A stretch of 64,000 nucleotides of DNA, from assembly GCF_001457795.1 (NCBI RefSeq), contig NZ_LN898210.1, forward strand, positions 248,001 through 312,000, in the 5' to 3' direction. Under the pieces are notes generated by a model. That model ran no database searches, was not told the origin of the DNA, and worked only from the letters and a program-made list of their open reading frames with translations. The stretch comes from Olsenella massiliensis. Its GTDB lineage: Bacteria > Actinomycetota > Coriobacteriia > Coriobacteriales > Atopobiaceae. This document shows, one piece after another, positions 902 to 32,161 of the stretch (position 1 is its first letter; each line of letters opens with the position of its first letter). The position numbers and the translations under genes were made by a program.

Positions 902-954
902 ACGTCACGGATTCTGCAGGTGCGCGCAACGAATGTGGTGAGGGGTATTTCGAA

Positions 955-1407
955 ATGCTGTTGAGGAAAGAACTTGTCTATGTCAATCTCAAAGCTTTGT
1001 CAAGAGAGGACTTACTTCGAAAGCTTGCAGGTGAATTTCTGAAAGAGGGGTTGGTCAAGCCGTCTTTTCCCCAGGCGATCCTTGACAGGGAGGCAGTTTA
1101 TCCCACAGGACTTCCTGCTGTTGCGTTTGATATAGCCATTCCTCATTGTGCAGCTTCGAATGTCAACGAAACGTCTATGGCGGTTGCTACCCTGGAACAT
1201 CCTGTGGAATTCCAGCAGATGGGGTCAGCAGATATAACGCTGCATCCTGAAGTCGTTTTCATGCTTGCCATCCAGGATCCCGGCAAGCAGTTGGAGATGC
1301 TCCAAAAGATCATGGGAATCATACAGGATCGCGGGCTGCTCGAAAAGATTCGCAGCTCGAAGAATGCCGATGAGCTGTATGGTTTGCTGTCGCCAAAGGT
1401 CAATTAA
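955..1407 (+). CDS. PTS EIIA component, fructose/galactitol (GatA) type
   Basis: A 150-residue single-domain EIIA of the mannitol/fructose/galactitol superfamily. It takes phosphate from HPr and passes it to EIIB. The active histidine is His64 in the AIPHC motif, where the family has AIPH. Length matches GatA. It lies 53 bases after the first aldolase and 46 bases before EIIB, so it is co-transcribed. Because the best fit is to the galactitol branch, a hexitol or pentitol-like substrate is plausible, but this is inference. Confidence 0.9.
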   Translation: MLLRKELVYVNLKALSREDLLRKLAGEFLKEGLVKPSFPQAILDREAVYPTGLPAVAFDIAIPHCAASNVNETSMAVATLEHPVEFQQMGSADITLHPEVVFMLAIQDPGKQLEMLQKIMGIIQDRGLLEKIRSSKNADELYGLLSPKVN

Positions 1408-1453
1408 GGTCAGGCTGTCGGAAGGACCGGCAAAAGCGAGAAAGGAAGCAATC

Positions 1454-1756
1454 ATGCTCAAGAAAGTAAAGTTCCTGTCAGTGTGCGGTTCAGGTGTGGT
1501 GACCTCCCACATGATGGCCAATAAAATCGTCGACATGCTCTCTGATGAGGGCTATGACGCAGAAGCTGACGAATGCAACCCCTCCGAGCTCGATGGATAT
1601 CTGATGCGCGGAAACTATGATTTCATTGCCAATTCGAGCCCCATTGGCGACGCGCATGGAGTGCCTGCATTCTCCGCAATGGGCCTCATCACGGGACTGG
1701 GAGACGAGGAGTTTTTGAAGCAGGTGCTTAATCTTCTTCAGAAAAAAGACAAGTAA
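1454..1756 (+). CDS. PTS EIIB component, galactitol (GatB) type
   Basis: A 100-residue EIIB protein. The phosphorylated cysteine is Cys11 in the loop SVCGSGVVTS near the N-terminus, the normal P-loop of GatB-like EIIB. It relays phosphate from EIIA to the sugar bound at EIIC. ATG 1454 is preceded by AAAGGAAG (1441-1448). A longer in-frame reading from 1265 would run through most of the EIIA gene and is not credible. Stop at 1756 and the EIIC start at 1804 are 47 bases apart. Confidence 0.9.
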   Translation: MLKKVKFLSVCGSGVVTSHMMANKIVDMLSDEGYDAEADECNPSELDGYLMRGNYDFIANSSPIGDAHGVPAFSAMGLITGLGDEEFLKQVLNLLQKKDK

Positions 1757-1803
1757 GTGCTTTTGCTCGGGCAGCAAGCTTGGATATAACAGAAAGGGAA
1801 AGA

Positions 1804-3228: not shown

Positions 3229-3266
3229 CGGTTTTCCGACGTTATCAAAGAAGGAGACTCGTTTCC

Positions 3267-3938
3267 ATGCCTTCATCTAAAGATGTGAAGCCCGATCTTC
3301 AGGAGCTTGTTAGACTCTCGGGTGTCCGGATGATTGATTCTGGTCTTACTGTGGCAACTTGGGGCAACATCAGCTGTTGCGACAGAGAGACGGGCCTGAT
3401 GTATATCACGCCCAGCGGTATGAACTACCATGAGATAGTCTATGATGATATCAATGTATACGATTTAAAAGGCAACCTTGTCCAAGGCCATCGTCGTCCG
3501 TCTATCGAGCACGATATGCATCGCGGCATGTACAATGCGCGCCCCGAGATATCGGCTTGTGTGCATACCCATCCCATTTTTTCAACCGTATTTTCGTCGA
3601 TGGGTGAGAACATTCCCATTAACCTTCACGATGAAGCAGCGCAGGCGTTAGGTGATACCGTGCGCTGTGCGGACTACTGCCTTCCGGGGACGATCGATCT
3701 GGCAAGTGCTGTAGTGAGGGCCATGGGGGAAAAGGCAAATGCATGCCTGCTCCGGAATCATGGAGCCGTGTGCATTGGTGAAGATATGGACGGTGCGTTC
3801 AAAGTTTCGACTGTCCTTGAAATGGTCGCGGAGATTTATTGGCGCATTCGCGCTACAGGTAGCACCTATGTCCCCATATCTGATGAAAACGTCGCTGCGA
3901 TGCAAATGTTTGTCAAGACTAAGTACGGCCAGTATTAG
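3267..3938 (+). CDS. Class II aldolase (FucA/AraD family), second copy
   Basis: A 223-residue class II aldolase, clearly a paralogue rather than a duplicate of the first gene of the operon. The metal ligands are present: His100 and His102 in CVHTHP, His165 in RNHGAV, and Glu81 in SIEHDMH. The WGNIS phosphate loop is at about residue 32. AAGGAGAC precedes the ATG by about 11 bases. Two dissimilar class II aldolases in one PTS operon suggest two sequential steps (for example epimerisation then cleavage) or two related substrates. That division of labour is inferred, not shown. Confidence 0.9.
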   Translation: MPSSKDVKPDLQELVRLSGVRMIDSGLTVATWGNISCCDRETGLMYITPSGMNYHEIVYDDINVYDLKGNLVQGHRRPSIEHDMHRGMYNARPEISACVHTHPIFSTVFSSMGENIPINLHDEAAQALGDTVRCADYCLPGTIDLASAVVRAMGEKANACLLRNHGAVCIGEDMDGAFKVSTVLEMVAEIYWRIRATGSTYVPISDENVAAMQMFVKTKYGQY

Positions 3939-3959
3939 ATTTGCATGGAGAGACAGGCC

Positions 3960-4505
3960 ATGAAGTATACATATAAGTTCAAAATTGATGTGCCTACTTT
4001 TCGGAAGGCGCTGTATTTCAATGCCTTTGCTCGTAACCGTGCTCAGCTGGGATTTGTGGCCGCTGCATGGGCAGGAGCTGCAGTCCTTGCCGGTTTGGAC
4101 CTATTTGGCAGGCTAGAACTTACCAATGTTGTCCAGATTTGCTACATCGTGGTACTTCTCTCAATGCCGCTTCTTATCTTCTCGTGCGAGCGCGGGTGGC
4201 GTGAATATCGGGATAGTGGGCTGCAAGAACGCGAACGAAGCGTTTCTGTCAGTGAAGACTGGGTGAAGTTTTGCATAAGTGGAGATGCAAATTCAGATAA
4301 GGTCGAGTGGCATAATATATCTGCTATTTTCGAACTTTTTGATGAGTTCGTCATCTACCGTGATGCCGATCAGATGGTTGTTCTCCCAAAATCAGTGATT
4401 AGTAATGAGGATATGCTAGTTCTACGCAGCCTGTTCATCAGGAAGTTGGGAAGAAGCTATAAGCTGCGAGCTTCTGTACCTGAAGGAGCATGTATTAAAG
4501 CATGA
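3960..4505 (+). CDS. YcxB-like membrane protein
   Basis: A 181-residue protein of the YcxB-like type. It has a short N-terminal strand region, two hydrophobic segments (about residues 27-50 and 55-75), and then a soluble C-terminal part. The C-terminal part has the family pattern of an EW/HNISAIFE stretch and a VVLPKS motif. The function of the family is unknown. ATG 3960 follows GGAGAG with 8-base spacing, so it is preferred over ATG 3945. It is 21 bases after the second aldolase and is the last gene of the operon; a terminator begins 29 bases beyond its stop. Confidence 0.75.
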   Translation: MKYTYKFKIDVPTFRKALYFNAFARNRAQLGFVAAAWAGAAVLAGLDLFGRLELTNVVQICYIVVLLSMPLLIFSCERGWREYRDSGLQERERSVSVSEDWVKFCISGDANSDKVEWHNISAIFELFDEFVIYRDADQMVVLPKSVISNEDMLVLRSLFIRKLGRSYKLRASVPEGACIKA

Positions 4506-4534
4506 TGACGAACGGGGATTGATCCAATTTCGGA

Positions 4535-4565
4535 GCAGAGGGGCTGTATGCCTCTCTGCTTTTTG
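4535..4565 (+). terminator. Intrinsic terminator of the PTS/aldolase operon
   Basis: A 9-bp stem, GCAGAGGGG pairing with CCTCTCTGC (one G-U pair), closes a 7-base loop and is followed by TTTTTGCTTT. It lies 29 bases after the YcxB-like stop, so it fits as the end of the six-gene transcript. Confidence 0.8.
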
Positions 4566-5323
4566 CTTTATTACATTTTTACCTATGTTGTCGTCCTCTT
4601 GGCTGAGAAGTCCGGCTTACTGAACTCGAGAAAGGTCCATGGTCTCGAAGTGGGTGGTGTTTCTCTGGAACCGGATGGCGGATTGAGCCATTGAGGGATG
4701 CGTTATTGGGTTGCTTTTCCACCAGTCGAGTATCTCTCGCTGCTCTTTTTGCAGAGCCTCCTGCCATGGTCTTCATCTCCCACGCGCCGAAATGCTCGCT
4801 GAGTTCATGGAAATCTACTGCATCCATTTCTGTTATTAAGGGTTTAACTGGAACTGGAGCTGCGAAATCTATGCAAAACCCCAAGCATCTCGATAGCCTC
4901 TCATGTAATTCCAAAGACGTATGATCCGCATAGATTTTAAAACTTGCTGTCCATGACATTTACAGGGATTACAGGACGAGGACCAGAAATACGAGACAGG
5001 AAGCTGCTGCTTGCGACTGACAGTATGTGATCCGGAGCACAGTTGTTTTTGTCCCTCGAGCCTCCAGGCCCTCCAAGCTGCTGACTCTCCAAGATGTCTA
5101 GGGTTCCGTTCCCAATGAGAGCGGCTTATAAGCTTTGCTGTCATATGGATGCTAAAAATTTGGAAATTTGTCAGTTTTAAACATAATAAGTTGATTTGTA
5201 TGGCAATCAAAAATGTTCCAGCGACAAGCGCATGGCATGCAGGCTATCGCGTAATTCCTGGATTCTGCGAATTGTTTCATCCTCACGGATGCTCGAGGTT
5301 TCTTTCATGATGCCCTCGTGCTA
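4566..5323. other. Gene-poor, decayed stretch
   Basis: No intact gene is supported here. ORFs on both strands are short, mutually antisense, lack ribosome binding sites and do not show the codon bias of real genes nearby. The longest minus-strand reading (4579-4959) contains a protein-like run but I recognise no family. A 33-codon minus-strand reading (5308 down to about 5207) overlaps the end of the ogt relic. Base composition is intermediate between the PTS operon and the GC-rich core. It looks like a graveyard of dead genes. Confidence 0.45.
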
Positions 5324-5915
5324 AAGGTAATCTTTTCATCGATGCCGCTGCTGAAGTTTGTCAGGTTGTCGTTGATTCCAATGACGCAGTGGCAGGCAAC
5401 AATGACGGGATAGATGTTGCGGATGATGGCACCTCCGACGACATGAGGAGACAAGCGCCTTCCTATCTTTTTTCATGATGTCCTTGGTTATGTCGCCGTG
5501 GGTCATTGTTTTGCCGCAGGGAATAGCGAGCTGGACAGTGCGGACACTTCTCTGGACTTGGTGCCGCATGGCGCCAAGGGAGGTTCTCAGGGATCGGGAC
5601 GCCTGTCTGCAAAATGGCGGTCCAGTCTGTCTCGCTCCTTCTGCAGAATGTCCAGATCGTTTCTGCTTTCCATCGTGTCGCCCAGGCCAAATCCGAAACG
5701 GTGGGCGCTGCCGACGATGGGGTGGGGCATCCCCTGAAATACACAGGCCATTCTTCCTGTTGGCCAGGCATGCCTTTACGACCGTCCTCTAGACGGCATC
5801 CGTCTTGGCTCGTGCGTCTGTTCCTGCTCCCGGCGTCTCTCGCCCGGAAGGATGCAGACGGAAATATCCGTCGCATTTCATGTGCAGAGGATGGTCCATG
5901 GTGCAGAAGCCTGCT
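5324..5915 (-). pseudogene. ogt: Decayed O6-alkylguanine-DNA alkyltransferase (ogt)
   Basis: Reading the minus strand and allowing frameshifts gives the hallmarks of Ogt in order. First is a FCTMDHPL N-terminus (near 5884-5912), then a LDRHFADRRPD-like helix, then GTK-x-QRSV and IPCGKTMTHGDITK (the family IPxGxTxTYGdIA). Last are VGGAIIRN and VACHCVIGINDNLTNF followed by SGIDEKI (family PCHRVIGxxGxLTGYxGG). The alkyl-acceptor Cys survives but PCHR is degraded to ACHC, and the pieces lie in different frames with stops. The gene is dead. An intact, shorter MGMT-like protein is encoded at 9756. Confidence 0.55.
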
Positions 5916-6142
5916 GCCGGTCGAGAAATATCGGATGTGGGATCCCAGCTGCTGTCATTATTATGGTGTGGAAAGAGACAATGTGAAAGCCTCTTCGTTA
6001 CGTTCGAGAGTGCATATGCATCCGTTATCGGTTGCAAGAATAGGAGATGCTCAGAGACTCCTGGCGCAGCGGGTGTCGGAAGGGCAACCCCCCTTTACTC
6101 ATGATTTCAATTGCCGAACCGTCATCGCGTTCGAGCAGCCCT

Positions 6143-6469
6143 TTAGTCTACCGACATGGGAGCCGTGCTTAAGCGTCCGAGATTCGAGATCTCCAGCACA
6201 CACTTCGCTCGTTTGGCAAAGAAGAGCGCCCGGTACGCGCATGCTGTAAAGAGATAGGACCCCCGCGAGAGGTACCGCATGGCCTTGGCCTTGGGAAACG
6301 CGATTTGCCTTTTTGGGGTGAGCTTCGGCTTCTTGATCATCCGTACATCCACCATCTCCACCCTTCCGACGTGTTTCGCGGCCGCCTCGGCCCTGGTCGA
6401 GCTGCAGTCGGGGATGAGGGCGACGCCTCGCGCGTCCTGGACCACATCCAGGTGCTCATGCCCCTTCAA
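6143..6469 (-). CDS. Small basic hypothetical, or displaced C-terminus of the CHAD protein
   Basis: A 108-codon reading beginning with TTG, rich in Lys/Arg (MIKKPKLTPKRQ, FPKAKAMRYL) and with very high G/C in third codon positions, so it is probably coding. It overlaps the end of the CHAD gene by 14 bases in another frame. Removing one base from the C run at 6461-6464 would fuse the two into one protein of about 517 residues. Either it is a separate, translationally coupled gene (AGGGGGG lies just before the TTG), or it is the true C-terminus of the CHAD protein cut off by an indel. No family recognised. Confidence 0.4.
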   Translation of the reverse strand: MKGHEHLDVVQDARGVALIPDCSSTRAEAAAKHVGRVEMVDVRMIKKPKLTPKRQIAFPKAKAMRYLSRGSYLFTACAYRALFFAKRAKCVLEISNLGRLSTAPMSVD

Positions 6470-7694
6470 AGAGCCCCCCTGTCGCCCTCCACGTCTTGAG
6501 GCCTTCCATCAGCACGTGCTCGTCGGCCGCCTGTCTCTCCGCCATGTGCTCGAGCTCCGCGCACCACGTCTGACCCGCGCTGCAGGCCAGCCTCCCCAGC
6601 AACTGCTGGTTGGTGCGGGCGTCGCAGAGCTCCCCCAGGCGCGTCTGCAGCTCCTTGAGTCGTGGTTCCGTCCCCTCGAGGGACTCGGGGCATCCGAGGC
6701 TCTCGATGACGTACCGCAGCCGCTTTGTGGCCTTCCTGAGCTCGTGCGTTGCCGTGACGTTCGCAAAGTCATGGGCGTCGAGTCGCAGCTGGAGGTTGAG
6801 GGCCTCATTAAGACAGGTCTCGTCCCCATGGCGCGCCAGGGCGTCCTCGTCGAGCTCGAGCGCGCCGAGGGCTTCGCGCAGGGAGCCGAGCCTGGTGGGC
6901 AGCGTCCCGTCCACCATCGCGTCGAGAAACCCCTCCATAGACGTCGCACGTCGCTGCATCAGCCTCGTGACCAATGCCCGCGCTGCGTCCGTCGTCAGCT
7001 GTCCCGCCTCTTCCGCCTCCTTCAGGCGTGCGCACAGCACGTCGGTCTCGCGCACGTCCGATAGGCTTCGTGCGAGATCGCGCAGGATCTGGCGCGCCTG
7101 GCGGTTGGGGGCACTCCTTGTCCACGGCCGCATGAAGTCAAGCAGGGAGCGCAGGGTTCGTGCCCTCACCCGCACGTCATGAACGGACTCCCCGTCGCCG
7201 CCCTGAAGGAGGCGCAGGAGTGCCGCGCGAAGTGCTCGTTCCAGCTCGTCCAGGTGTCGTGTCGCTGACGTCTCGGCATGCTCGCGCGTCGCTGACGAGC
7301 GAAAGAGGTGCGTCCGCCCGCTCTCGTCGATGCTCCAGCGAACCTGAGAGGAGGGTGCGTCGCCATCCAGGTCGAGCAGCACGGCAATGCGGTCTGACCC
7401 TCCCGTCGAGCAGAGGCAGCGATACGTCTTTCTGAACAGCCTTCGCGGCTGTATGACGGCAAGCCGCCCTTCATAGCCCATGACGGCGGCGAGGACCTCC
7501 CCCAGGCCGGGGCCGGGCGCACGCTGCAGCCGTGAGCCGGGTGGCAGCAGGCCCTCGCCGGGCTCCGCCGACGCGAGCCAGCGGGTCGGCAGGTCGCCCG
7601 CAAGCAGCGAGCAGCGCCTGAGCAGCTCTTCCGAAGAGACGGCATGTCCCGACGTCCGCCGTGGCTCTGTGAGGAACAAGACCCAATGGTCCAT
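6456..7694 (-). CDS. CHAD domain protein
   Basis: A 412-residue protein. An N-terminal part of about 165 residues (unrecognised) is followed by a CHAD domain. The paired histidine/arginine helices typical of CHAD are visible: HDVRVRARTLRSLLDF near residue 170 and HELRKATKRLRYVIES about 150 residues later. CHAD proteins are known to bind polyphosphate; the partner here is unknown. ATG 7694 has AAGGGGGG just upstream; the longer reading to 8000 lacks a start signal and runs under the sigma-factor promoter region. It is divergent from the ECF sigma gene and is the only clear minus-strand gene left of 21.3 kb. Confidence 0.85.
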   Translation of the reverse strand: MDHWVLFLTEPRRTSGHAVSSEELLRRCSLLAGDLPTRWLASAEPGEGLLPPGSRLQRAPGPGLGEVLAAVMGYEGRLAVIQPRRLFRKTYRCLCSTGGSDRIAVLLDLDGDAPSSQVRWSIDESGRTHLFRSSATREHAETSATRHLDELERALRAALLRLLQGGDGESVHDVRVRARTLRSLLDFMRPWTRSAPNRQARQILRDLARSLSDVRETDVLCARLKEAEEAGQLTTDAARALVTRLMQRRATSMEGFLDAMVDGTLPTRLGSLREALGALELDEDALARHGDETCLNEALNLQLRLDAHDFANVTATHELRKATKRLRYVIESLGCPESLEGTEPRLKELQTRLGELCDARTNQQLLGRLACSAGQTWCAELEHMAERQAADEHVLMEGLKTWRATGGLFEGA

Positions 7695-7992
7695 GGCGCA
7701 CCCCCCTTGCACGGTCGTTTCGCATGGCCTCGGCCGTTCGCGCTCATGCCTCAAGTATCGCCCTTGGTCGGGCACCAAAGGCGCGCATGCGGGGGAGAGG
7801 CGCGGCGGCGTCGGGGAAGGCGACACAGCCCCGGCCCGCGCGACGATCGCGTCGCAGGATGAGGGGCTGCGGGCGCATCGGCGAGTGACATCGGCGTTCT
7901 TGTCAGCTTTGGCACCGTGCGTCGTGTCATACGTAGAGAGGGTCCCTGCTCGGGTATGACGACGAAAAAGAAGGCATGTGCGCGGAGGAAGC

Positions 7993-8544
7993 ATGTTCAC
8001 ACTGACGAGAGATTCCGCCCGACGGGGCCGACGGAAGCGAGGACGAGCCGAGCAGCTGGTGGAGGCCTATGCCGACCTCATTCTGCGCCTGAGCTACAGC
8101 TACCTGCGCTCCACGCAGGACGCGGAGGACATCTGCCAGACGGTGCTGCTTCGGCTTCTCATGACCGACCCGCCCATACGCGACGAGGAGCATGAGCGAG
8201 CCTGGGTCATTCGCACCACGGCAAACGCCTGCAAGGACGTCCTTAAGTCAGCCCGACATCGTCGGGTGGTGGCACTTGACGCCATCGGCGAGGTCCAAGG
8301 CCCGGCGACGGACGACCCCGCCGAGCTCGCGAGCGACGCGGGCGCGGAGGCGCTCGCCGCCGTTATGGAGCTGCCCGACGTCTACCGCGAGGCGGTGCAC
8401 CTGCACTACGTGGAGGGATGCCCCATAAGGGAGGTCGCCCGCCTCACGGACTCTACGGAGGCGGCCGTCACCAAGCGTCTGAGCAGGGCACGCAAGATGC
8501 TGCGCACAAGATTGGGGGAAGACCATGGCCGAGCCGATGGATGA
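7993..8544 (+). CDS. ECF-type RNA polymerase sigma factor
   Basis: A 183-residue sigma-70 family protein with only regions 2 and 4. Region 2 covers about residues 18-85 (YADLILRLSYSYLRSTQDAEDICQ shows the core-binding helix). Region 4 covers about 125-175 (LPDVYREAVHLHYVEG, then the helix-turn-helix SIREVA-like PIREVARLTDSTEAAV). CGGAGGA precedes ATG 7993, which is preferred over the upstream GTG at 7978. The next gene overlaps its end by 20 bases and encodes a single-span membrane protein, the usual sigma/anti-sigma arrangement. Confidence 0.93.
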   Translation: MFTLTRDSARRGRRKRGRAEQLVEAYADLILRLSYSYLRSTQDAEDICQTVLLRLLMTDPPIRDEEHERAWVIRTTANACKDVLKSARHRRVVALDAIGEVQGPATDDPAELASDAGAEALAAVMELPDVYREAVHLHYVEGCPIREVARLTDSTEAAVTKRLSRARKMLRTRLGEDHGRADG

Positions 8545-15107: not shown

Positions 15108-16267
15108 CGAGAGAGGCGCGCAGACGCCCGTCACGGCTGCTCCTTACGCTCGCTGTCATGCTCATGGCGGCACTGCTGACGCCCGCGAGGGCATGGGCCG
15201 ACGAGCCCGCTCTGAGCGAAGCCCAGGCCTATGTCCTTGTTGACCAGGGCGGCAACGTCCTTGCCTCCCAAAACGCCGACCAGCAGATGGAGCCCGCCTC
15301 CATAACCAAGATCATGACGGCGATGGTCGCGCTCGACTCGGGCAAGGACCTTGACGACGCCTGCACCCTCACGCGGGTGACCTATGACTCCAATGCCCAG
15401 CTCGCGGGCATCGCGACGGGCGACGTCATCAGCTTCAGGAACCTCCTGCAGGTCATGCTCGTCTATTCCGCCAACGACGCGGCCGACAACGTCGCCCTGG
15501 CCGTCTCGGGGTCCACGGAGGACTTCGTGGCGCGGATGAACGAGAAGGCCCGCGAGATCGGCATGACGAACACGCATTTCTCCAACACGCACGGGCTGTC
15601 CGAGGACGCTCACCGCTCGACCGCCGAGGACCTCGTCAAGATGGGCGCATATGCGCTCGAGCACTATCCCTTCATCGCGCGGACGGTGCGCATGCGCTCG
15701 GTCACGGCGACCTTCGCGGGGACGCAGACGACCTACGCCTCCACCGACGAGCTCATGGACAGCTACGCGGGGCTGATCGGCATCAAGACGGGCTCCGTCG
15801 AGTCGGGCTACACCTTCCTCGGCTGCTCGGAGCGCAGCGGCGTCAGGCTCTATAGCTGCGTGTTGGGCTGCGCCACCAACGCCGGGCGCTTCGGGGACAC
15901 GGCTCGCCTCATGGACTGGGGGTACGAGAGCCGCTACCAGCGCAGGACGCTGTCGCGCGCCAAGCTCCCCGTGCGCATCGTCAACGCCTCCACGAGCTTC
16001 TTCGGCCGCCTGCTGGTCGTTGCCGGCATGGATGCGAGCGGCCTCGTCCTGCCCGAACGAGACATCGCGTGGAGCTCGACGATGCTGCTGCCGGGGTCGT
16101 TGGTTGACCCCGGATCGGGGTACGGGAGCAGCGTCTGGACACAGGACGGGCGCACGGTCTGCGCCGAGACCTATCTGGCCGACACGCAAACGCGTGACCT
16201 TCCCCAGGTCAACGTGTTCGCGCTGCCGCTCTTCGTCAACATGGACGAGCTTCTTGGCGCGGCATGA
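15104..16267 (+). CDS. D-alanyl-D-alanine carboxypeptidase (PBP5/DacF type)
   Basis: A 387-residue exported penicillin-binding protein that trims the terminal D-Ala from peptidoglycan stems. A signal peptide (residues 1-32) precedes the S11 peptidase domain. The catalytic motifs are all present: Ser66-x-x-Lys69 (SITK), Ser122-Ala-Asn124 and Lys228-Thr-Gly230. A beta-rich C-terminal part follows. Its ATG overlaps the stop of the phosphatidyltransferase, so the two envelope genes are coupled. Confidence 0.92.
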   Translation: MTREARRRPSRLLLTLAVMLMAALLTPARAWADEPALSEAQAYVLVDQGGNVLASQNADQQMEPASITKIMTAMVALDSGKDLDDACTLTRVTYDSNAQLAGIATGDVISFRNLLQVMLVYSANDAADNVALAVSGSTEDFVARMNEKAREIGMTNTHFSNTHGLSEDAHRSTAEDLVKMGAYALEHYPFIARTVRMRSVTATFAGTQTTYASTDELMDSYAGLIGIKTGSVESGYTFLGCSERSGVRLYSCVLGCATNAGRFGDTARLMDWGYESRYQRRTLSRAKLPVRIVNASTSFFGRLLVVAGMDASGLVLPERDIAWSSTMLLPGSLVDPGSGYGSSVWTQDGRTVCAETYLADTQTRDLPQVNVFALPLFVNMDELLGAA

Positions 16268-16277
16268 GGGGAGGGCC

Positions 16278-17114
16278 ATGGACCTGACGACGCTCAAAGA
16301 TGAGCAGCTGGCGCTCGGCGCCCGCTTTGAGGGGGAGGGGGGCACACTGGCATCCCCCTCGTCCTATGTGGGAGAGCCCCGTCCTGAGGACCTTGAGGAC
16401 GGCGTAGCCCTGGTGGACCTGAGCGGGATGCTCCTGCTTCTTGCCTCGGGCGCTCAGGCGGCGTCCTTTGGCGGACTCGCGCTCGCCGGGCCCAAGCTCG
16501 CCGTGGGCGACTGCGCCCTCCAGGCGTCGCTGCTGGGCGACGGGGCGCTGGCGTCGGTCCCCCTTGTCGCGCGCACGGGTGACGCGGAGCTGCTCGTGAT
16601 GGACCCCTGGCCGCGTCACGAGCTGTTGCGCTCGTGGCTGGGCTTTCTGAGGGACGTCGAGCAGGACGGCGTGAGGCCTTTCGAGAGCCTCGACCTTGAC
16701 GACATGAGCGATCGTCTCGTGCCCCTGGCCCTCGTCGGCTCGACGGCGCGCCTCGTCCTTCAGGACTACGTCCGAGGCACGGAGCGCCTGCCGGAGCCGG
16801 GCGAGGTGGTGAACCTCGACCTGGACGGTCACATCACGACCATCGTGGCGTCCCCCGCAGGCGCCGGGGACGCGTGTTTGCTGCTGCTCGTGCCGCCCGC
16901 CTGCGCACGTGTCGTGTGGAGGAGCCTGCTCTCCTTTGCCGTCGTGACGCCCCTGGGGCATGAGGGCTTCCTCTCATGGTCCCGGCGACGGTGGAGGGCG
17001 CTCAGAAGCTGCGCGTCGCAGGACAGAATACGGGTGCCGCGCGCGCAGCTGGAGCGCGACGGGCTCGTGCGCCCCGGGCGCGACTTCGTGGGCGCACGAG
17101 GGTTGGATGACTGA
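16278..17114 (+). CDS. GcvT/YgfZ-like folate-binding-fold protein
   Basis: A 278-residue protein resembling the aminomethyltransferase (GcvT)/YgfZ fold. The C-terminus has the GcvT-like RDFVGARGL motif and the middle has the folate-barrel layout. The family includes glycine-cleavage T-protein and YgfZ proteins for Fe-S enzyme repair. No other glycine-cleavage genes are near, so a YgfZ-like or unrelated role is more likely. GAGGGGAGGG precedes ATG 16278; the longer reading from 16020 runs antiparallel in sense to the upstream carboxypeptidase gene's frame and is rejected. Sequence is rather diverged, so the assignment is moderate. Confidence 0.65.
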   Translation: MDLTTLKDEQLALGARFEGEGGTLASPSSYVGEPRPEDLEDGVALVDLSGMLLLLASGAQAASFGGLALAGPKLAVGDCALQASLLGDGALASVPLVARTGDAELLVMDPWPRHELLRSWLGFLRDVEQDGVRPFESLDLDDMSDRLVPLALVGSTARLVLQDYVRGTERLPEPGEVVNLDLDGHITTIVASPAGAGDACLLLLVPPACARVVWRSLLSFAVVTPLGHEGFLSWSRRRWRALRSCASQDRIRVPRAQLERDGLVRPGRDFVGARGLDD

Positions 17115-18073: not shown

Positions 18074-18802
18074 ATGCCAGATGCCGGGTATCTCACGATA
18101 GGGAAGGTCGTCAAAAGGCTGCAGGCGCAGTACCCGGACCTCTCCATCTCAAAGGTGCGCTACCTTGAGGACGAGGGGCTGCTCACGCCCTCGCGCACCC
18201 CGTCGGGCTACCGCCTGTACTCACAGTCGGACATCCATCGCCTGGAGACGATTCTCTACCTGCAGAAGAATCGATTCATGCCCCTGCAGGTCATCAGGGA
18301 CCAGCTGGAGGGCAAGAGCGGCGACGCGCTGTCAGGGGCCCTCGCCGCCAGCCTCACGGAGGCGCAGCAGGAGGGCGCCGCGGCCCAGGACCGCCTCTAT
18401 CCCATCGATCGCGTCCCCGAGCTCTTCGGCACGTCCGTGAGTCTGGTGCGTCAGTGCTCCGACGCCGGGCTCATCGTCCTCAAGAAGTCGCCGCACGGTC
18501 GCGACCTGGTTGACGGGCACGACATCCCCCTCATACGAACCTGCAACGAGCTCCAGCACTTTGGCATCGCCCCCAAGAACCTTCGCCAGTACGTCACGGC
18601 GGCCAACCGCGAGAGCGCCCTCTTTGAGCAGGCCCTCATGGTGTACGCACGCAAGGCGGGCGGCGTCGAGATGGAGCATACGAACGAGACGCGCGAGCAG
18701 TTTGCCAACGCCCTCCAGCAGATACTGATACTTACGAGCCAGGTGCACGACACCCTGCTCAAGCGGCAGATCAGACGGGCCTTCTCACAGATGGGGGAGT
18801 AG
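18074..18802 (+). CDS. MerR-family transcriptional regulator (Rv1828/FtsR-like)
   Basis: A 242-residue regulator with an N-terminal MerR helix-turn-helix (LTIGKVVKRL, then KVRYLEDEGLLTPSRTPSGYRLYS, residues 6-55). A second, winged-helix-like repeat (IDRVPELFGTSVSLVRQCSDAGL) begins near residue 115. Position directly after a GarA-like FHA gene matches the actinobacterial pair Rv1827-Rv1828, whose corynebacterial relative FtsR activates ftsZ. The functional match is inferred from synteny and architecture. Only 3 bases separate it from the FHA stop and its own ribosome binding site is weak, so coupling is likely. Confidence 0.88.
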   Translation: MPDAGYLTIGKVVKRLQAQYPDLSISKVRYLEDEGLLTPSRTPSGYRLYSQSDIHRLETILYLQKNRFMPLQVIRDQLEGKSGDALSGALAASLTEAQQEGAAAQDRLYPIDRVPELFGTSVSLVRQCSDAGLIVLKKSPHGRDLVDGHDIPLIRTCNELQHFGIAPKNLRQYVTAANRESALFEQALMVYARKAGGVEMEHTNETREQFANALQQILILTSQVHDTLLKRQIRRAFSQMGE

Positions 18803-19385: not shown

Positions 19386-19566
19386 GCACCGTCCTGCCGG
19401 CTTGCGACGGTCGCCTGAACCCCTTGCGCCGCAGCTCTGACGGGTCACGTCGGCTTTTTCGTCGCCGACTGTCGCGAGGGCCGCGTGCCACCCCACGCAT
19501 CGTGGCGCGTCGCTCCCACCAAGGGATATGATGGAACCCTCGCACGCGAGGGAGGGAGAGGGCGCG

Positions 19567-21177
19567 ATGCCCAACAATCGAGCGGACAAACAGGTGAGCA
19601 GGCGCTTCTCGCGGCGCTTTCAGGTGGACATGATCTGGGAGGGGGCCCTTGTGGGCCTGGCGGGAGGTGGCGTCGTCACGCTGTATCGCCTGAGCCTCAC
19701 CCGCGCCGAGGTCCTTTTGCGCCAGCTGCTTGCCCTCATGCAGCGACAGCCCCTTGCTATCGTGGGCCTCGTGGCCCTGCTCGTCGTCTCGTGCCTGATC
19801 GTGGCAAAGCTGGTGAGCTGGGAGCCGTATACCCAGGGTTCGGGCATTCCCCAGATCGACGCCGAGGTCATGGGCCGCATCGACATGCCCTGGCATCGGG
19901 TGGTGCTGGCAAAGTTCGTGGAGGGGACCCTCCTGACGCTCTCGGGCCTCTCGCTGGGCCGTGAGGGTCCCAGCGTGCAGCTGGGCGGCATGGGCGGCAA
20001 GGCCGTCTCGCGGGCGCTCAAACGCGGCAGGGGAGAGGAGCGTCTGCTTGTCACCTGCGGGGCGGCGGCGGGCATGTCAGCCGCGTTCCATGCGCCCCTC
20101 ACGGGCGTGCTCTTTGCGGTGGAGGAGATTCACAAGGAGTTCACCCCGTCGCTCATCGTCTCGGCCATGGCGTCGGCCGTCGCCGCGGACTTTCTCGTCT
20201 CGCAGGTGCTCGGCGTCACGCCGGTGCTGCAGCTGCGCTTCGTGCGCGACCTGCCGCATGCCTACTATCTGGCGGTGCTGGGACTGGGGCTGCTCTGCGG
20301 CGTCCTGGGGTCGCTTCACAACCAGGGCATGTTCCTGCTGAGCGAGCGGGCCTTCGCGCGTCTCGGGCGCCTTCCCTTCGTGGTGCGCCTCGCCGTGCCC
20401 TACCTGCTCTCCGGCGTCGTGGCATGCGTCGCTCCGGTGCTCTTGTGCGGTGGCGACGCCATCGTCGAGGTCCTCGGGAGGCCCGACGCGCTGCCCCTGC
20501 TGACCATCGTGGGCCTGCTGGTGGGGAAGTACCTCTTCACCAGCGTCTCCTTTGCATCGGGGGCGCCGGGCGGCACGCTGTTTCCGCTCTGCGTCATGGG
20601 AATGCTCATCGGTGCCCTCTACGGGAGCCTTCTCGCGCACGTCACGGGCATCCAGGGCCTCTTTGTCGTCAACTTCATGGCCTTGGGCATAGCCGGCCTG
20701 TTCTCCTCGGTCGTGCGTGCGCCCGTCACGGGCGTGGTGCTCGCCTTTGAGCTCACGGGGAGCTTCAGCGCGCTGCTGGCGGTATCCATCGTGTCCATCG
20801 TGGCATACGTGATCGCCAACGTGCTGGGCAGCGACCCGTTCTACGAGCACCTGCTGGCAAACCTGCTGGGCGTGAGGAAGGTCACCTCGTCCGTGCGCGG
20901 TAACGTGACGGGCGAGAAGGCCCTTCATTCCTACACGGTGGGCGCGGGCAGCCGCCTTGAGGGCAGACGCCTGTGCGACGTTGACTGGCCGGCGTCCTCC
21001 CGCATCGTGACGATCGACCGCATGGGCACGGACATCGTGCCCACGGGCTCCACGATGCTCGAGTCGCTCGACAGCATCCTGGTCATCATGGACGCCGACA
21101 GCGAGGACCAGATTCAACCCAAGATATGGGACCTGTGTCGGAGCTCTCTGGCTACGGCGCGCACGCCGCGACGCTAG
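19567..21177 (+). CDS. ClC-family chloride channel/transporter with TrkA-C domain
   Basis: A 536-residue polytopic ClC protein. The anion selectivity motifs are present: GSGIPQ, GREGPSVQLG and GAPGGTLFP. The C-terminal 75 residues after the last membrane segment form a TrkA-C (RCK-C) domain (ending LESLDSILVIMD), instead of the CBS pair common in other ClCs. Such a domain suggests ligand gating by a nucleotide or ion. Whether it is a channel or a Cl-/H+ exchanger is not decided here. ATG 19567 follows GGGAGGGAGAGGG; ATG 19528 lies upstream in frame but has no such site. It is the last plus-strand gene before the dif-like site. Confidence 0.9.
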   Translation: MPNNRADKQVSRRFSRRFQVDMIWEGALVGLAGGGVVTLYRLSLTRAEVLLRQLLALMQRQPLAIVGLVALLVVSCLIVAKLVSWEPYTQGSGIPQIDAEVMGRIDMPWHRVVLAKFVEGTLLTLSGLSLGREGPSVQLGGMGGKAVSRALKRGRGEERLLVTCGAAAGMSAAFHAPLTGVLFAVEEIHKEFTPSLIVSAMASAVAADFLVSQVLGVTPVLQLRFVRDLPHAYYLAVLGLGLLCGVLGSLHNQGMFLLSERAFARLGRLPFVVRLAVPYLLSGVVACVAPVLLCGGDAIVEVLGRPDALPLLTIVGLLVGKYLFTSVSFASGAPGGTLFPLCVMGMLIGALYGSLLAHVTGIQGLFVVNFMALGIAGLFSSVVRAPVTGVVLAFELTGSFSALLAVSIVSIVAYVIANVLGSDPFYEHLLANLLGVRKVTSSVRGNVTGEKALHSYTVGAGSRLEGRRLCDVDWPASSRIVTIDRMGTDIVPTGSTMLESLDSILVIMDADSEDQIQPKIWDLCRSSLATARTPRR

Positions 21178-21268
21178 CGTCGCACAAGGAAACGGCGGTG
21201 TCGCACAAAAGGGCACGACGCGTCTGTCGTCACGTGTGCGACCCCACTCGGTCCACCCGGGACCCGTC

Positions 21269-21309
21269 CGCGCCTGCGAGGGTAGGCGAAAAAGGCCCTC
21301 GCAGGCGCG
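21269..21309. repeat. 14-bp perfect inverted repeat between convergent genes
   Basis: CGCGCCTGCGAGGG (21269-21282) and its exact complement (21296-21309) enclose a 13-base loop. It lies between the 3' ends of the ClC and trxB genes, 44 bases from the dif-like site. No T tract follows on either strand, so it is not a classical intrinsic terminator. It may still stop transcription from both sides, as U-less hairpins do in some actinobacteria. Confidence 0.7.
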
Positions 21310-21352
21310 ATCGGAGGCAGGACCCCAGGCTCCTAAAGCGGGCGTTTCTTTT

Positions 21353-21380
21353 ACTTTACATAAGATATATTATCATATTT
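21353..21380. other. dif: dif-like XerCD recombination site
   Basis: On the minus strand, a XerD-type arm TTATGTAAAGT follows a 6-bp centre TATATC and a XerC-type arm AAATATGATAA. From memory, known dif sites carry TTATGTTAAAT (E. coli), TTATGTAAACT (B. subtilis) or TTATGTCAAGT (actinobacteria) as the XerD arm and usually ATAA/GATAA at the inner end of the XerC arm. This site is an AT-rich island in GC-rich DNA, lies in an intergenic gap, and sits where gene orientation switches from plus to minus. All of these fit a chromosome-dimer resolution site at the replication terminus. Confidence 0.75.
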
Positions 21381-21403
21381 TTAGGAGGCGGCGGAGGGGG
21401 GTG

Positions 21404-22351
21404 CTAGCCCTCGACGGGCTGTCCCAGATACGACGCGACGCTCGTCGCGGCGATGGCGCCGTCCGCAGCGGCCGTCACGATCTGTCGCAGGCTCTTCTGC
21501 CTCACGTCACCAGCGGCAAAAAGGCCCGGAACCGTCGTCTCCATGCGCTCGTTTGCGACCACATATCCCTGGCGGTCAAGCTCAACGAGGTCCTTGACGA
21601 GTCCGGACGCAGGCACGCGACCCACGAAGACAAAGACGCCAAACGACCCCTTGTCGAAGGTCTCGGTGGTCAGCGCACCCGTCTCGTTGTTGCGGAAGGT
21701 CACGCTCTGCAGCAGCCCGTCTCCCCCGACCGCCGTGATACTAGTTAGGTACCTAACTTCTAGTTTCTCGCTCTCGGCGACCTGCTTCGCCACGGAGGCC
21801 TGGGCGCGCATGTGGTCCTTGCGGACGACCATGGTCACCTTGTCGGCAAACTTGGTGAGAAAAAGGGCCTCCTCGGCCGCGGAGTTGCCGCCGCCGATCA
21901 CGAAGACCTGCTTGCCGCGGTAGAACATGCCGTCACACGTGGCGCAGTATGACACGCCATGACCGCCAAACTCCTCCTCGCCGTCAAAGCCCGCATGGCG
22001 CGGCGTGGCGCCGCCGGCGAGGATGACCGCTCTGGTGACGTAGCTCGCTGCGGAGGTCGTCACGGTGAAGAGCCCGGACGACTCGTCGCGGCTGATGGAG
22101 CGTACGTCCTCCATGACGATGGCCGCTCCCAGGTCCTTGGCCTGCCTTTGCATGGCGTCGGTGAGCGAGAAGCCGTCGGTGTGCGGCACGCCAGGATAGT
22201 TGTCAACCTCGTTCGTGAGGATGACCTGCCCGCCGACGGCCTCCTGCTCAAGCGTGACGGCGTCAAGCAGCGCTCGGGCGGCGTAGATGGCGGCGGAGAG
22301 CCCCGCCGGGCCCCCTCCCACGATGACGAGGTCCCTGATGTTATCTGTCAT
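21404..22351 (-). CDS. trxB: Thioredoxin reductase
   Basis: A 315-residue FAD/NADPH disulfide reductase that keeps thioredoxin reduced. FAD motif GGGPAGLSAA at residues 12-21, redox pair Cys136-Ala-Thr-Cys139 (YCATCD), NADPH motif GGGNSAAEE, and the C-terminal FAD motif FAAGDVR are all present. ATG 22351 begins the FAD-binding sequence; upstream in-frame extension is unsupported. The coding DNA contains a 16-bp AT-rich palindrome (21743-21758). No thioredoxin gene is adjacent. Confidence 0.95.
   Translation of the reverse strand: MTDNIRDLVIVGGGPAGLSAAIYAARALLDAVTLEQEAVGGQVILTNEVDNYPGVPHTDGFSLTDAMQRQAKDLGAAIVMEDVRSISRDESSGLFTVTTSAASYVTRAVILAGGATPRHAGFDGEEEFGGHGVSYCATCDGMFYRGKQVFVIGGGNSAAEEALFLTKFADKVTMVVRKDHMRAQASVAKQVAESEKLEVRYLTSITAVGGDGLLQSVTFRNNETGALTTETFDKGSFGVFVFVGRVPASGLVKDLVELDRQGYVVANERMETTVPGLFAAGDVRQKSLRQIVTAAADGAIAATSVASYLGQPVEG
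21743..21758. repeat. 16-bp perfect palindrome inside trxB
   Basis: AGTTAGGTACCTAACT is its own reverse complement. It lies inside the trxB coding sequence and encodes VRYLT using codons (AGG, CTA, ACT, AGT nearby) that are rare in this GC-rich gene. That makes it stand out. Confidence 0.8.
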
Positions 22352-22536
22352 GAGGCAACCCTTCGTTGTTGCGATGGCACTACAGGGACTGTTGTACCCA
22401 ACTACGGGGCTCAACCATGGGCGGGTCGGTCGCGACATGACGCTCGTCCTGCCTGACGGCGCGCCCGGTGCATGGCAACAATTGGCCGCTGGCGGCGCAA
22501 CATGGCGAGTTGGCGCGTGCGACCTGCGTCAACGTA

Positions 22537-26963: not shown

Positions 26964-27041
26964 GAACACACGTACTTAGAACACATGTGCTATACTACGA
27001 ACACGCAGGGCGGCTGTCAAGTGAAATAAGAACATATGTTT
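26964..27041. promoter_or_regulatory. Cluster of LexA (SOS) boxes between the LysM gene and lexA
   Basis: Three half-to-full matches to GAAC-N4-GTTC lie in the divergent intergenic region: GAACACACGTAC (26964-26975), GAACACATGTGC (26979-26990) and GAACATATGTTT (27030-27041). A weaker GAACACGCAGGG lies at 26999-27010. A near-consensus -10 (TATACT, 26991-26996) overlaps the second box. Binding of LexA here would repress both divergent genes and give lexA autoregulation. Confidence 0.8.
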
Positions 27042-27083
27042 TCATTCCGCCCCGTCGCTCGGCGACCACCGCAAGGGGGAGAC

Positions 27084-27734
27084 ATGTCCAAGGACAAGCT
27101 CAGCAAGAGGCAGGCGTCCATCTACGACTACATCTGCGCGTATACGGCCGAGCACGGCTATGCGCCCTCGGTGCGCGAGATCGGCAAGGCCGTGGGGCTC
27201 GCCTCCCCCTCCACCGTCCACATGCACCTTAAGGTGCTCGAGGAGCGCCAGCTCATCAAGCGGGCCAGCAACAAGCCCCGCACGATCGAAGTCAAGGGCC
27301 CGGAGCGTCCCTCCGACGCCGTCGGCGTGGCCCCCGCCACCCGTGACGTCAACGTCGCCATGCTGTCGTTGCCGCTCGTGGGCCGCGTGGCCGCCGGCAC
27401 CCCCATCCTGGCCGAGCAGAACGTCGAGGAGGAAGTCGCCCTGCCCGTCAGCCTGGTGGGCGACGCCTGCTCGTTCCTGTTGCGGGTCCGCGGCAGCTCC
27501 ATGATCAACAAGGGCATCCTCGACGGCGACGTCATCGCCGTCCACGAGCAGCCGGACGCCTCCGACGGCGACGTCGTCGTGGCGCTCGTCGATGACGGAG
27601 CCACGGTCAAGACGTTCTATCGCGAGAAGGGCCGGATTCGCCTGCAGCCCGAGAACGACGCGATGGAGCCCATCTACGCCACGAACCCGCGTATCGTGGG
27701 CAAGGTCGTGGCGCTGGTGCGCTCCCTTGCCTAG
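27084..27734 (+). CDS. lexA: SOS repressor LexA
   Basis: A 216-residue repressor: winged helix-turn-helix at residues 1-65 (SVREIGKAVGLASPSTVHMHL is the recognition region) and an S24 self-cleavage domain. The scissile Ala104-Gly105 is in RVAAGTP, the nucleophile is Ser139 in RGSSM, and the general base is Lys176 in ATVKTFY. RecA filament triggers autocleavage. AAGGGGGA precedes ATG 27084. It is one of few plus-strand genes right of the dif-like site and is divergent from the YneA-like gene. Confidence 0.97.
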   Translation: MSKDKLSKRQASIYDYICAYTAEHGYAPSVREIGKAVGLASPSTVHMHLKVLEERQLIKRASNKPRTIEVKGPERPSDAVGVAPATRDVNVAMLSLPLVGRVAAGTPILAEQNVEEEVALPVSLVGDACSFLLRVRGSSMINKGILDGDVIAVHEQPDASDGDVVVALVDDGATVKTFYREKGRIRLQPENDAMEPIYATNPRIVGKVVALVRSLA

Positions 27735-28503
27735 CGCCGCGCGCCCACGAACCCCGCCTGCCCGCCCTGGGCGTTTGGCGACGGTTGACGCCCTCAAGGG
27801 GCTCACGGTGATCTCCATGGCCCTCTTCCACTGGTGCTATGACCTGAGTCATCTCTTTGGGGTGCCCCTTGCGTTCTTTCGGCCGCCTCTTCTGGATGTG
27901 TGGCGCGCGTCCATCAGTTGGACCTTCCTGTTCGTCGCCGGCTGGATGTGCTCCTACTCACGCAGCCTGCCGCGCCGCGCCGCCAGGTACCTGCTCGTCG
28001 CGCTGGGGATATGCGCGGCCACGAGCGTGGCGGGCGTCGATGCGCCCATAAGCTTTGGCATCATCTTCTGCATGGGGGCCAGCACGCTTCTTGCCGCCCT
28101 GCTGGGCCGCTATGGCCTCCCGCGAGGAGGTGGGGCCACGACGCTGGCCCTCGTCGCCCTCTTCGTGCTGAGCCTCAATGTTCCTGCCGGCTTTTTTGGC
28201 GCGGGACCCGTTCTGATGCGCCTGCCGCAGGGGCTCTACGCCACCCCCTGGCTTGCCTGGCTCGGCTTTCCTGACGCCCTCTTCTGCTCGGGGGACTACT
28301 ACCCCCTTCTCCCCTACGGCCTCATGTACCTGGCTGGCGCGAGCTTTGGCAGGGGGCTCTCGGCGACGTCGACGCCCACGGCGCTCGGCAGGTCCGTGTG
28401 TCGCCCCCTCGAGTGGCTGGGCAGGCACTCGCTCGTGGCGTATCTGGTCCACCAGCCCCTGCTGCTGGCGCTTGGGGCCGCGCTGACAGGCAAGGTCCCT
28501 TAG
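27727..28503 (+). CDS. HGSNAT/DUF1624-like membrane acyltransferase
   Basis: A protein of about 258 residues with six to seven transmembrane segments. It opens with the family motif RLATVDALKGLTVISMALFHWCYD, typical of the heparan-alpha-glucosaminide N-acetyltransferase catalytic (PF07786/DUF1624) family. Bacterial members are probable acyltransferases for cell-surface glycans. The start is unclear: TTG 27727 (8 bases inside lexA, coupled) or TTG 27775; no ATG fits. Its place directly after lexA makes co-expression in the SOS response possible. Substrate unknown. Confidence 0.75.
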   Translation: MPSAARPRTPPARPGRLATVDALKGLTVISMALFHWCYDLSHLFGVPLAFFRPPLLDVWRASISWTFLFVAGWMCSYSRSLPRRAARYLLVALGICAATSVAGVDAPISFGIIFCMGASTLLAALLGRYGLPRGGGATTLALVALFVLSLNVPAGFFGAGPVLMRLPQGLYATPWLAWLGFPDALFCSGDYYPLLPYGLMYLAGASFGRGLSATSTPTALGRSVCRPLEWLGRHSLVAYLVHQPLLLALGAALTGKVP

Positions 28504-29846
28504 GACCGGCCGTCCTCGACGTCCTGGTCATGACGCTCGCGTCCGCCAGACCGGGTGTCTGCGCAGGCGTATCGCCGGAGCGTGTCTGCCAGGCGTGCGG
28601 GCACCCGCGCCGTGACGAGCAGACCCTCCTGCAGGTACTGCTCGCGCATGATCTGGCAGCGCTCATGGATCAGCTTCTGAAGGAGCCCCTTGTCATAGGG
28701 GATGAGGACGGTCATGGCCCGGTCGCCCTCGCCCGCCTTCTGCGCCACGCTAACGAGCAGCGCGTCCAGGCCTCGACCGTCCAGCGCCGAGACGAGAAGG
28801 GCGCTCGGATGCGCGCCCATGACGCCCGCCAGGTCCGTCTCGTCAAGAAGGTCGCACTTGTTGTAGACGATAAGCGAGGGGGTGTCGGCGGCGCCGATCT
28901 GGCCGAGCACCTGATCGACCGCCTCGAGCTGCCTGTCGCGCTGGGGGTCAGAGGCGTCGGCGACCCTGAGGATCAGGTCGGCGGCGCGCGCCTCGGCCAG
29001 CGTCGACTTAAAGGACTCGACGAGCGTGGTGGGCAGCTTTTGGATGAACCCCACGGTGTCGGTGAGGGTGACCTTGCGCCCCGCGTCCAGTGACAGCGCC
29101 CTCGTGGTGGGGTCGAGGGTCGCAAACAGCTCGTCCTTGGCATACACCTGCGCGCCCGTGAGCCGGTTGAGCAGGGTTGACTTGCCGGCGTTCGTGTAAC
29201 CGACGAGCGCGACGCGATAGACGCCCGAGTCCCATCGCGCCTTGCTCTGCACGCGGCGGCGCCCCTCGAGCGCCTTAAGCTCGCGCCTCAGCCAGCTGAT
29301 GCGGTCCCTGATGAGACGGCGGTCAACCTCGAGCTGGCTCTCCCCCTGGCCAAAGCGGCTCCCGATGCCGCCGCGCGTCTGCTCGCCCACGAGGTGGCCC
29401 CACATCCCGCGCAGGCGGGGCAGCACGTACTGCAGCTGTGCGAGCTGGACCTGGAGCCTGCCCTCGTGCGTCTTGGCATGCGTGCCAAATATGTCAAGTA
29501 TCAGGGCGGTGCGGTCGATGACCTTGGTCGGCTCCCCCATGACGCGTTCGAGGTTGCTCTGCTGCGAGGGGCTCAGCTCGTCGTCAAAGATGACGACGTC
29601 GGCATGGAGCGACCGTGCCAGGCGGGCGATCTCCTCGGCCTTGCCGCTGCCGACGAGGGTGCGCGGCACGAGACGCTCGAGGCGCTGGGTGACCACGGCG
29701 ACGACGTCGGCGCCGTCCGTGTGCGCGAGGCGGCCGAGCTCCTCGAGCGAGTCCTCGAGGGACCAGCTCGCGTCTCCCAGATCAACGCCGACGAGGATGG
29801 CGCGCTCGCGCGCCGGGGCCGTGGGCCGCGGGGTGAACCTAGCCAT
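28500..29846 (-). CDS. hflX: Ribosome-associated GTPase HflX
   Basis: A 448-residue HflX GTPase that splits stalled ribosomes. The N-terminal HflX domain (NLERVMGEPTKVIDRTALILDIF) and middle glycine-rich helical part precede the G domain. The G domain shows G1 GYTNAGKST, G3 DTVGF and G4 NKCD. A C-terminal tail of about 80 residues follows. ATG 29846 overlaps the miaA stop (ATGGCTAG), linking it to miaA as in many bacteria. It converges on the plus-strand HGSNAT-like gene, overlapping it by four bases. Confidence 0.95.
   Translation of the reverse strand: MARFTPRPTAPARERAILVGVDLGDASWSLEDSLEELGRLAHTDGADVVAVVTQRLERLVPRTLVGSGKAEEIARLARSLHADVVIFDDELSPSQQSNLERVMGEPTKVIDRTALILDIFGTHAKTHEGRLQVQLAQLQYVLPRLRGMWGHLVGEQTRGGIGSRFGQGESQLEVDRRLIRDRISWLRRELKALEGRRRVQSKARWDSGVYRVALVGYTNAGKSTLLNRLTGAQVYAKDELFATLDPTTRALSLDAGRKVTLTDTVGFIQKLPTTLVESFKSTLAEARAADLILRVADASDPQRDRQLEAVDQVLGQIGAADTPSLIVYNKCDLLDETDLAGVMGAHPSALLVSALDGRGLDALLVSVAQKAGEGDRAMTVLIPYDKGLLQKLIHERCQIMREQYLQEGLLVTARVPARLADTLRRYACADTRSGGRERHDQDVEDGRS

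Positions 29847-30801: not shown

Positions 30802-32161
<1,360 letters not shown>

Follow-up and report, generated by a model that had tools for sequence, protein, structure and literature searches.

A 28-bp sequence between convergent ClC and trxB genes of Olsenella massiliensis is supported as the dif site at the replication terminus

Dif has been predicted for 66 actinobacterial chromosomes in a general survey, which suggests a site for Frankia alni and reports ftsK for the most part in the interval from xerC, close to dif, to xerD, close to the origin (PMC3025954). The KOPS motif of E. coli and V. cholerae, GGGNAGGG, is a G-rich octamer that is aimed at dif and switches there (PMC2533119 and PMC13342612, as excerpted), and residues N1296, R1300 and E1303 of E. 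coli FtsK are needed to read it (PMC2533119, same excerpt). V. cholerae has two sites, dif1 and dif2, on its two chromosomes (PMC5357621, as excerpted). The 28-mer described here is almost certainly the chromosomal dif of an Atopobiaceae-type bacterium (Coriobacteriia), at which chromosome dimers are resolved via XerCD and FtsK. As a dif it is of a well-known kind; the points of interest are the linkage of ftsK to dif and a variant guide motif. By analogy with the described systems, XerC and XerD would bind the two arms of the 28-mer, and G-rich motifs, oriented and switching at dif, would guide the septal pump FtsK along the two chromosome arms. On arrival, the FtsK gamma domain would switch on XerD, and one crossover at dif would split a chromosome dimer into monomers.

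The DNA analysed (the window) is a stretch of 64,000 nucleotides from contig C12 (421,722 bases) of an assembly of 1,818,711 bases (1.82 Mb) in 13 contigs. The 28-mer lies at 269,353-269,380 of C12, and in window coordinates the site and its surroundings are as follows:

21353 to 21380, minus strand: dif site, 28 bp, reading from XerC arm to XerD arm on the minus strand
21370 to 21380, minus strand: XerC-type arm AAATATGATAA, the arm being assigned by analogy with known dif sites
21364 to 21369, minus strand: dif centre TATATC, 6 bp
21353 to 21363, minus strand: XerD-type arm TTATGTAAAGT
19528 to 21177, plus strand: chloride channel/antiporter of the ClC type that also has a TrkA_C domain, adjoining dif on the XerD side and convergent with TrxB
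21264 to 21314, no strand assigned: inverted repeat after the ClC gene, 19-nt arms, 89% complementary, a putative terminator
21404 to 22438, minus strand: TrxB, a flavoenzyme of the thioredoxin reductase type, adjoining dif on the XerC side and convergent with ClC

The minus strand of 21353-21380 thus has an 11+6+11 layout, two 11-bp arms with a dyad core around a 6-bp centre, and the original prediction of a dif-like 28-mer with a XerD arm, a 6-bp centre and a XerC-like arm was right to the base. Compared with the B. subtilis dif, 20 of the 28 positions are identical, with 10/11 in the XerD arm and 5/6 in the centre but only 5/11 in the XerC arm. The site suggested for Frankia alni in the excerpt of PMC3025954 shares the 11+6+11 layout, the GATAA...TTATGT core and 10 of 11 XerD-arm positions; it differs in the XerC arm (6/11 identical), in the centre (TGCACA vs TATATC here) and in matching only 18/28 positions overall. 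The 28-mer has a G/C content of 4/28, and the 41-bp windows starting at 21343-21346, with 17% G+C, are the AT-richest of the window between 8 and 64 kb, as expected from the claim that the site is an AT-rich island. Its place in the gap between convergent ClC and trxB genes was also correctly predicted, the gap being 226 bp long. Searches of the window with Rfam and for tRNAs found no feature. A 15-nt inverted repeat, 80% complementary, flanks dif at 21323-21337 and 21380-21394 and is probably due to chance.

A convergent gap with an inverted repeat nearby is also where an AT-rich terminator- or promoter-like stretch might resemble dif by chance, and AT-rich gaps do yield loose matches. Within the window, TTATGTAAANT occurs without mismatch at the dif place only. 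Allowing up to three mismatches gives 61 places against 38.5 expected, many of them in a 49% G+C stretch at 1-6 kb, so these loose matches are meaningless. Across the whole assembly, ATAA-N6-TTATGTAAANT is found at one place with no mismatch, at one with a single mismatch and at 12 with three; since the reversed control also has 14 places at up to three mismatches, only the exact match carries weight. There is one exact copy in the assembly, in keeping with one dif per chromosome. The single-mismatch place, C13:811635, was considered as a second dif and rejected: it lies upstream of a PTS-like ORF and contains TTGACA, and a search of 39 other genomes with this sequence (L110:11635) returned only two matches, each with three mismatches. 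No better dif site thus competes with the predicted one. C13:811635 resembles a Frankia-type site, and its downstream ORF reads by eye as a mannose-type PTS protein.

Conservation in relatives is strong. A stricter exact pattern matched 29 of 60 genomes (our own included), 28 of them at a single site and one, G024, at two; the reversed control matched 0/60. Among the remaining 31 genomes, 24 matched a second pattern at up to three mismatches, six of these at none, and the control of that pattern matched three places. Counting sites with at most one mismatch, 34 of 37 family genomes (own included) have the site, 23 by the exact and 11 by the second pattern; neither pattern found it in G006, G012 (57% complete) or G030. 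In an alignment of 51 sites, from which the second site of G024 (L031) and the additional or weaker matches L129 and L134-L139 were excluded, the 28-mer has a mean of 1.58 bits per column compared with 0.08 in the outer flanks; in this figure GATAA and TTATG were fixed by the search pattern, and the centre was free in 29 of the 51 rows. Where the centre was left free, it reads TATATN in 27 of 29 sites. The original expectation that the 28-mer would be conserved in relatives is therefore borne out, at up to one mismatch and with variable flanks. A chance resemblance would not explain why 28 bp are conserved letter by letter over 51 sites whose flanks vary, why this holds also where ClC or TrxB was not found beside the site, or why control patterns matched 0 of 60 genomes, and we consider it next to inconceivable. 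With a looser dif pattern, some genomes, among them G017, G098, G026, G096 and G112, had multiple matches.

The dif 23-mer was found in 85 stretches of the species genome collection; among the matches listed (80), most are from Atopobiaceae, Olsenella or other Coriobacteriia, and a few are listed under other names (Neomarinimicrobiota, Acidobacteria, Bacteroidota, Atribacteria, a methanogen). One of these, L231 (CACWTF010000020.1), is titled as a methanogenic archaeon and has a ClC gene beside dif as in Coriobacteriia; it is probably a mis-binned contig.

The neighbours of dif are conserved as well. We examined 139 dif loci, drawn from overlapping sets of relatives and named genomes. In 67 of them, which are all of the loci where both genes were detected (67/67), ClC is located toward the XerD arm and TrxB toward the XerC arm, each aimed at dif. 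Only one neighbour was detected in 32 loci, always in the same place and direction, neither in 35, and the site itself was not found in five. Because the loci are only 1.4-8 kb long, a missing ClC or TrxB may be due to truncation.

In seven relatives with near-complete chromosomes, the distance from dnaA to dif is 46.6-54.6% of the chromosome, with rounded lengths for G020 and G027 and the main contig used for G019 and G031. The position opposite dnaA rests on these relatives, since our own dnaA is on contig C13 and dif is on C12. A dnaA gene was found in all 18 genomes searched with E-values of 1e-92 or better, the matches in all 18 being below the curated cut-off of TIGR00362. Dif and dnaA are on the same strand in nine of ten genomes with both on one contig, the exception being G026.

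The original prediction also held that gene direction flips at the site, with a few exceptions, all of which are real:

6456 to 8000, minus strand: CHAD gene, exception left of dif
27036 to 27734, plus strand: lexA, exception right of dif
27592 to 28503, plus strand: HGSNAT-type acyltransferase, exception right of dif
60545 to 60805, plus strand: rpsT, exception right of dif

Along contig C12, 146 of 202 genes left of dif are on the plus strand and 102 of 121 to its right are on the minus strand; within 50 kb of dif the flip is sharper (36/45 left on plus, 41/43 right on minus). The same switch within 50 kb is followed by 31/43 genes on the left and 36/45 on the right in G004, and by 36/38 and 35/41 in G002. 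A maximum-likelihood fit places the change of gene strand within the dif gap in all three genomes. These counts come from a simple purpose-made gene caller, which in the window missed the acyltransferase, miscalled parts of 1-6 kb and put a minus-strand ORF at 16236-16961 where Pfam supports a plus-strand gene at 16020-17114. The genes for two class II aldolases, a PTS EIIA and an EIIC of the GAT type in window positions 1-6250, a stretch of 49% G+C in a contig of 67% G+C, probably form an acquired cluster for sugar use.

An extremum of GC skew, which had been expected at the site, is absent in our genome, where the skew is too weak to show a switch. Within the window the skew is flat left of dif and mildly positive to its right, contrary to the usual leading-strand expectation, and over contig C12 it is weak, with no clear extremum of the genome's skew at dif. 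Cumulative skew peaks near the site in G002; that of G004 hardly varies and has its broad maximum shortly beyond the site. Given its weakness in C12 and near flatness in G004, we rejected GC skew as a terminus marker. Genes and oriented motifs (see below) switch at dif in our genome, whereas GC skew alone does not. The reading of the 28-mer as dif at the replication terminus is supported, and dif marks the meeting point of the oriented chromosome arms.

Dif-like sites are also carried by mobile elements that use Xer recombination, and GATAA-N6-TTATGTAAAGTA occurs in 57 stretches of viral contigs, so that the 28-mer could be the Xer attachment site of an integrated element (IMEX) instead of a working chromosomal dif. 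Against this, there is one exact site and no second copy flanking an element, the same two genes adjoin the site in all 67 loci (of 139) with both detected, and in relatives the site lies opposite dnaA and at the strand switch. An integrated element is thus highly improbable, and we retain the chromosomal dif. Two viral contigs, L282 and L286, each have two co-stranded dif-like sites 73-74 bp apart and possibly belong to Xer-using elements. G096 and G112 combine one ordinary dif with multiple copies of GATAAGCGCGGTTATGT(A/G)A, which are perhaps Xer sites of mobile elements or another repeat.

The host encodes the proteins that such a site needs: a XerC-type and a XerD-type recombinase and an FtsK with a gamma domain. 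In the assembly, PF00589 matched two proteins strongly and one fragment weakly, and the two proteins score best as XerC (C12, at 198 kb) and XerD (C10), each slightly below its own NCBIfam equivalog cut-off and above that of the general Xer-type model. By eye, the gene after xerC reads as ribosomal protein S2, and xerD overlaps a frame that reads as CTP synthase. The only gamma-domain FtsK of the assembly is the one in the window:

41151 to 43703, minus strand: FtsK DNA translocase (alpha, motor and gamma domains), located on the XerC side at about 20 kb from dif and transcribed in its direction

That FtsK is encoded some 20 kb from the site had been pointed out correctly, and this distance is part of a conserved arrangement. 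In 119 genomes drawn from the class, a dif-like place was found in 94 and an FtsK gamma match in all 119. In 81 genomes the two share a contig; there ftsK is always transcribed toward dif (81/81), and in 73 it lies on the XerC side no more than 35 kb from the site. Where a genome had several dif-like places, the count used the one closest to ftsK, a choice that biases such genomes towards linkage. Outside the order, linkage is seen in 24/24 genomes. The eight exceptions are G017, G098, G102, G026, G120, G100, G114 and G068. In a draw from the phylum as a whole, 157 of 158 genomes had an FtsK gamma domain. In G017:C1 and G098:C1 alike there are two dif-like places, of which the one whose XerD arm is complete has TCAATA in place of TATATN as its centre; ftsK lies 94 kb away on the other side. 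A literature search, with subscription papers mostly outside its scope, found nothing on point on ftsK-dif linkage or on dif in Coriobacteria. According to the excerpted text of PMC5993296, inversions are few near termini, Actinobacteria included, and this would help the ftsK-dif arrangement to persist.

A flip of KOPS at the site had been expected, and it was seen for a family of motifs with a GGGGAG core and not for GGGNAGGG in general. In the discovery set (contig C12 plus 400 kb from each of G002 and G004), the words tied most to replichore over gene strand are GGGGGAG, AGGGGAG, TGGGGGAG and GGGGAGGG, which share this core. Regression on both factors gave GGGGAGGG a replichore z of 5.2 and a gene-strand z of -0.1, and TGGGGGAG values of 6.0 and 2.7. 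GGGGAGGG is one of the four forms of KOPS GGGNAGGG (as given in the excerpts cited above); the other forms, GGG[ACT]AGGG, have no significant replichore effect here (z 1.8; gene-strand z 1.1), and TGGGGGAG is as polar as GGGGAGGG. Neither GAAGAAG nor GAGAAGGG, which we take to be the B. subtilis SRS, gave a convincing switch when tried as a guide motif. In the window, all but two copies of TGGGGGAG and GGGGAGGG point to dif or share the strand of those that do:

18792 to 18799, plus strand: KOPS-like TGGGGGAG, left of dif and pointing to it
16268 to 16275, plus strand: KOPS-like GGGGAGGG, left of dif and pointing to it, with a second at 16332
29532 to 29539, minus strand: first of seven KOPS-like TGGGGGAG right of dif (others start at 32902, 36251, 38951, 42432, 46508 and 61913), all minus and pointing to dif
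31739 to 31746, minus strand: first of five KOPS-like GGGGAGGG right of dif (others start at 33611, 42430, 58178 and 63210), all minus
6630 to 7504, minus strand: two wrong-way TGGGGGAG (starts 6630 and 7497), inside the minus-strand CHAD gene and against the pattern

In C12, [AGT]GGGGAG is best fitted by a switch at 268,028-269,720, an interval that includes dif. The best switch point brackets dif in G002 and misses it by about 3.5 kb in G004, where the support interval contains dif; the change-points in these three are not independent of motif discovery, in which dif served as the breakpoint. The motif is likewise enriched on the leading strand and switches at dif in G024, which was held out. 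In 20 samples of the G024 chromosome, [AGT]GGGGAG is distributed 101:25 between the strands on one arm and 34:104 on the other (p 3e-20), and GGGGAGGG 36:4 and 5:37; the switch is present yet the GC skew of G024 is weak and, if anything, inverted. Samples of the whole G002 chromosome show a weaker bias (76:43 and 39:64, p 1.5e-4); the three immediately past dnaA have mixed or reversed polarity. On our own C13 (G000:C13), motifs and genes are forward at 0-220 kb, although the motifs should be reverse there, then reverse from about 240 to 380 kb and forward again past 440 kb; their polarity does not switch simply at dnaA, which is at 371 kb. The odd polarity of C13 may reflect an inversion or a misjoined contig.

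Chi sites are likewise G-rich and leading-strand biased, and the G-rich motif might be a Chi-like hot spot or a by-product of coding- or leading-strand bias, and not KOPS. Codon-like control words are indeed strongly strand biased and keep some replichore effect (GACTAC, replichore z 3.2 and gene-strand z 12.0; CGAGGAG, 5.4 and 10.6), intergenic AGGGGAG may partly represent ribosome-binding sites, and GGGGAGGG is not denser near dif in the three genomes (p 0.10; 0.06 in the opposite direction; 0.37). Against such a by-product, TGGGGGAG is richer on the template strand of head-on genes, with 16 copies vs five in 3.6 times as much co-directional coding DNA, and it is about twice as dense near dif in 3/3 genomes (p 0.0055, 0.022 and 0.046). 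Moreover, GGGGAGGG fits the GGGNAGGG family, and the switch in G024 holds whatever its GC skew. For the motif, a Chi-like or bias origin is therefore possible, if somewhat doubtful, and we continue to treat it as a candidate guide for FtsK.

In an alignment, the helix of our FtsK gamma domain reads GYARAGRIMD where the solved chains, presumably those of E. coli and P. aeruginosa, have GYNRAARIIE and GYNRAARMIE. The positions of N1296, R1300 and E1303 are thus occupied by A, R and D, so that A and D stand where E. coli has N1296 and E1303. In 30 FtsK loci that we read, the first position is A in 27 and S in three, and R and D are present in 30/30. Since FtsK has A, R and D at the recognition positions, we call the motif KOPS-like, not E. 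coli KOPS.

The second dif of G024 is on contig C2 (146,863 bases; loci L269-L276 and L031), at 115,866-115,892, and has the centre TGTGGA vs TATATG at the chromosomal site. On C2, [AGT]GGGGAG switches strand between 114,779 and 115,903, and again near 40 kb, just before a ParM/MreB-like actin gene of the kind found on plasmids. The switch score of C2 was reached by 0 of 300 shuffles for [AGT]GGGGAG, by 3/300 for GGGGAGGG and by 9/300 for TGGGGGAG. We infer that C2 is a separate replicon; a search of the plasmid collection with 4 kb around the second site found no match. The two G024 sites, with near-equal arms and different centres, resemble dif1 and dif2 of V. cholerae (PMC5357621, as excerpted). 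Unlike the two V. cholerae chromosomes, the second G024 contig is only 147 kb long, its replicon status being our inference.

Taken together, the Coriobacteriia terminus may be a frozen module, a joint reading whose truth as a whole we judge to be evenly balanced. It would comprise a dif whose orientation is kept between convergent ClC and trxB in Atopobiaceae, and an ftsK that has kept, across several orders, a place on the XerC side some 15-31 kb from dif and a direction toward it. It would further include a variant KOPS code (TGGGGGAG, GGGGAGGG), read by an FtsK gamma helix with two of three residues unlike E. coli, and the same code would also organise a second, 147-kb replicon in one species.

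The GGGGAG core is a testable candidate for an FtsK guide motif: if the variant code is true, FtsK should reverse at TGGGGGAG and GGGGAGGG only, and not at GGGCAGGG. The linkage in 73/81 genomes, at an unusually short distance, raises the question of why a translocase gene stays beside its own target; if true, linkage may let the translocase, its motifs and the site co-evolve, or be co-regulated by late replication. For these gut and rumen bacteria, in which GC skew may fail, dif fixes the terminus, the replichore boundary and the polarity of segregation.
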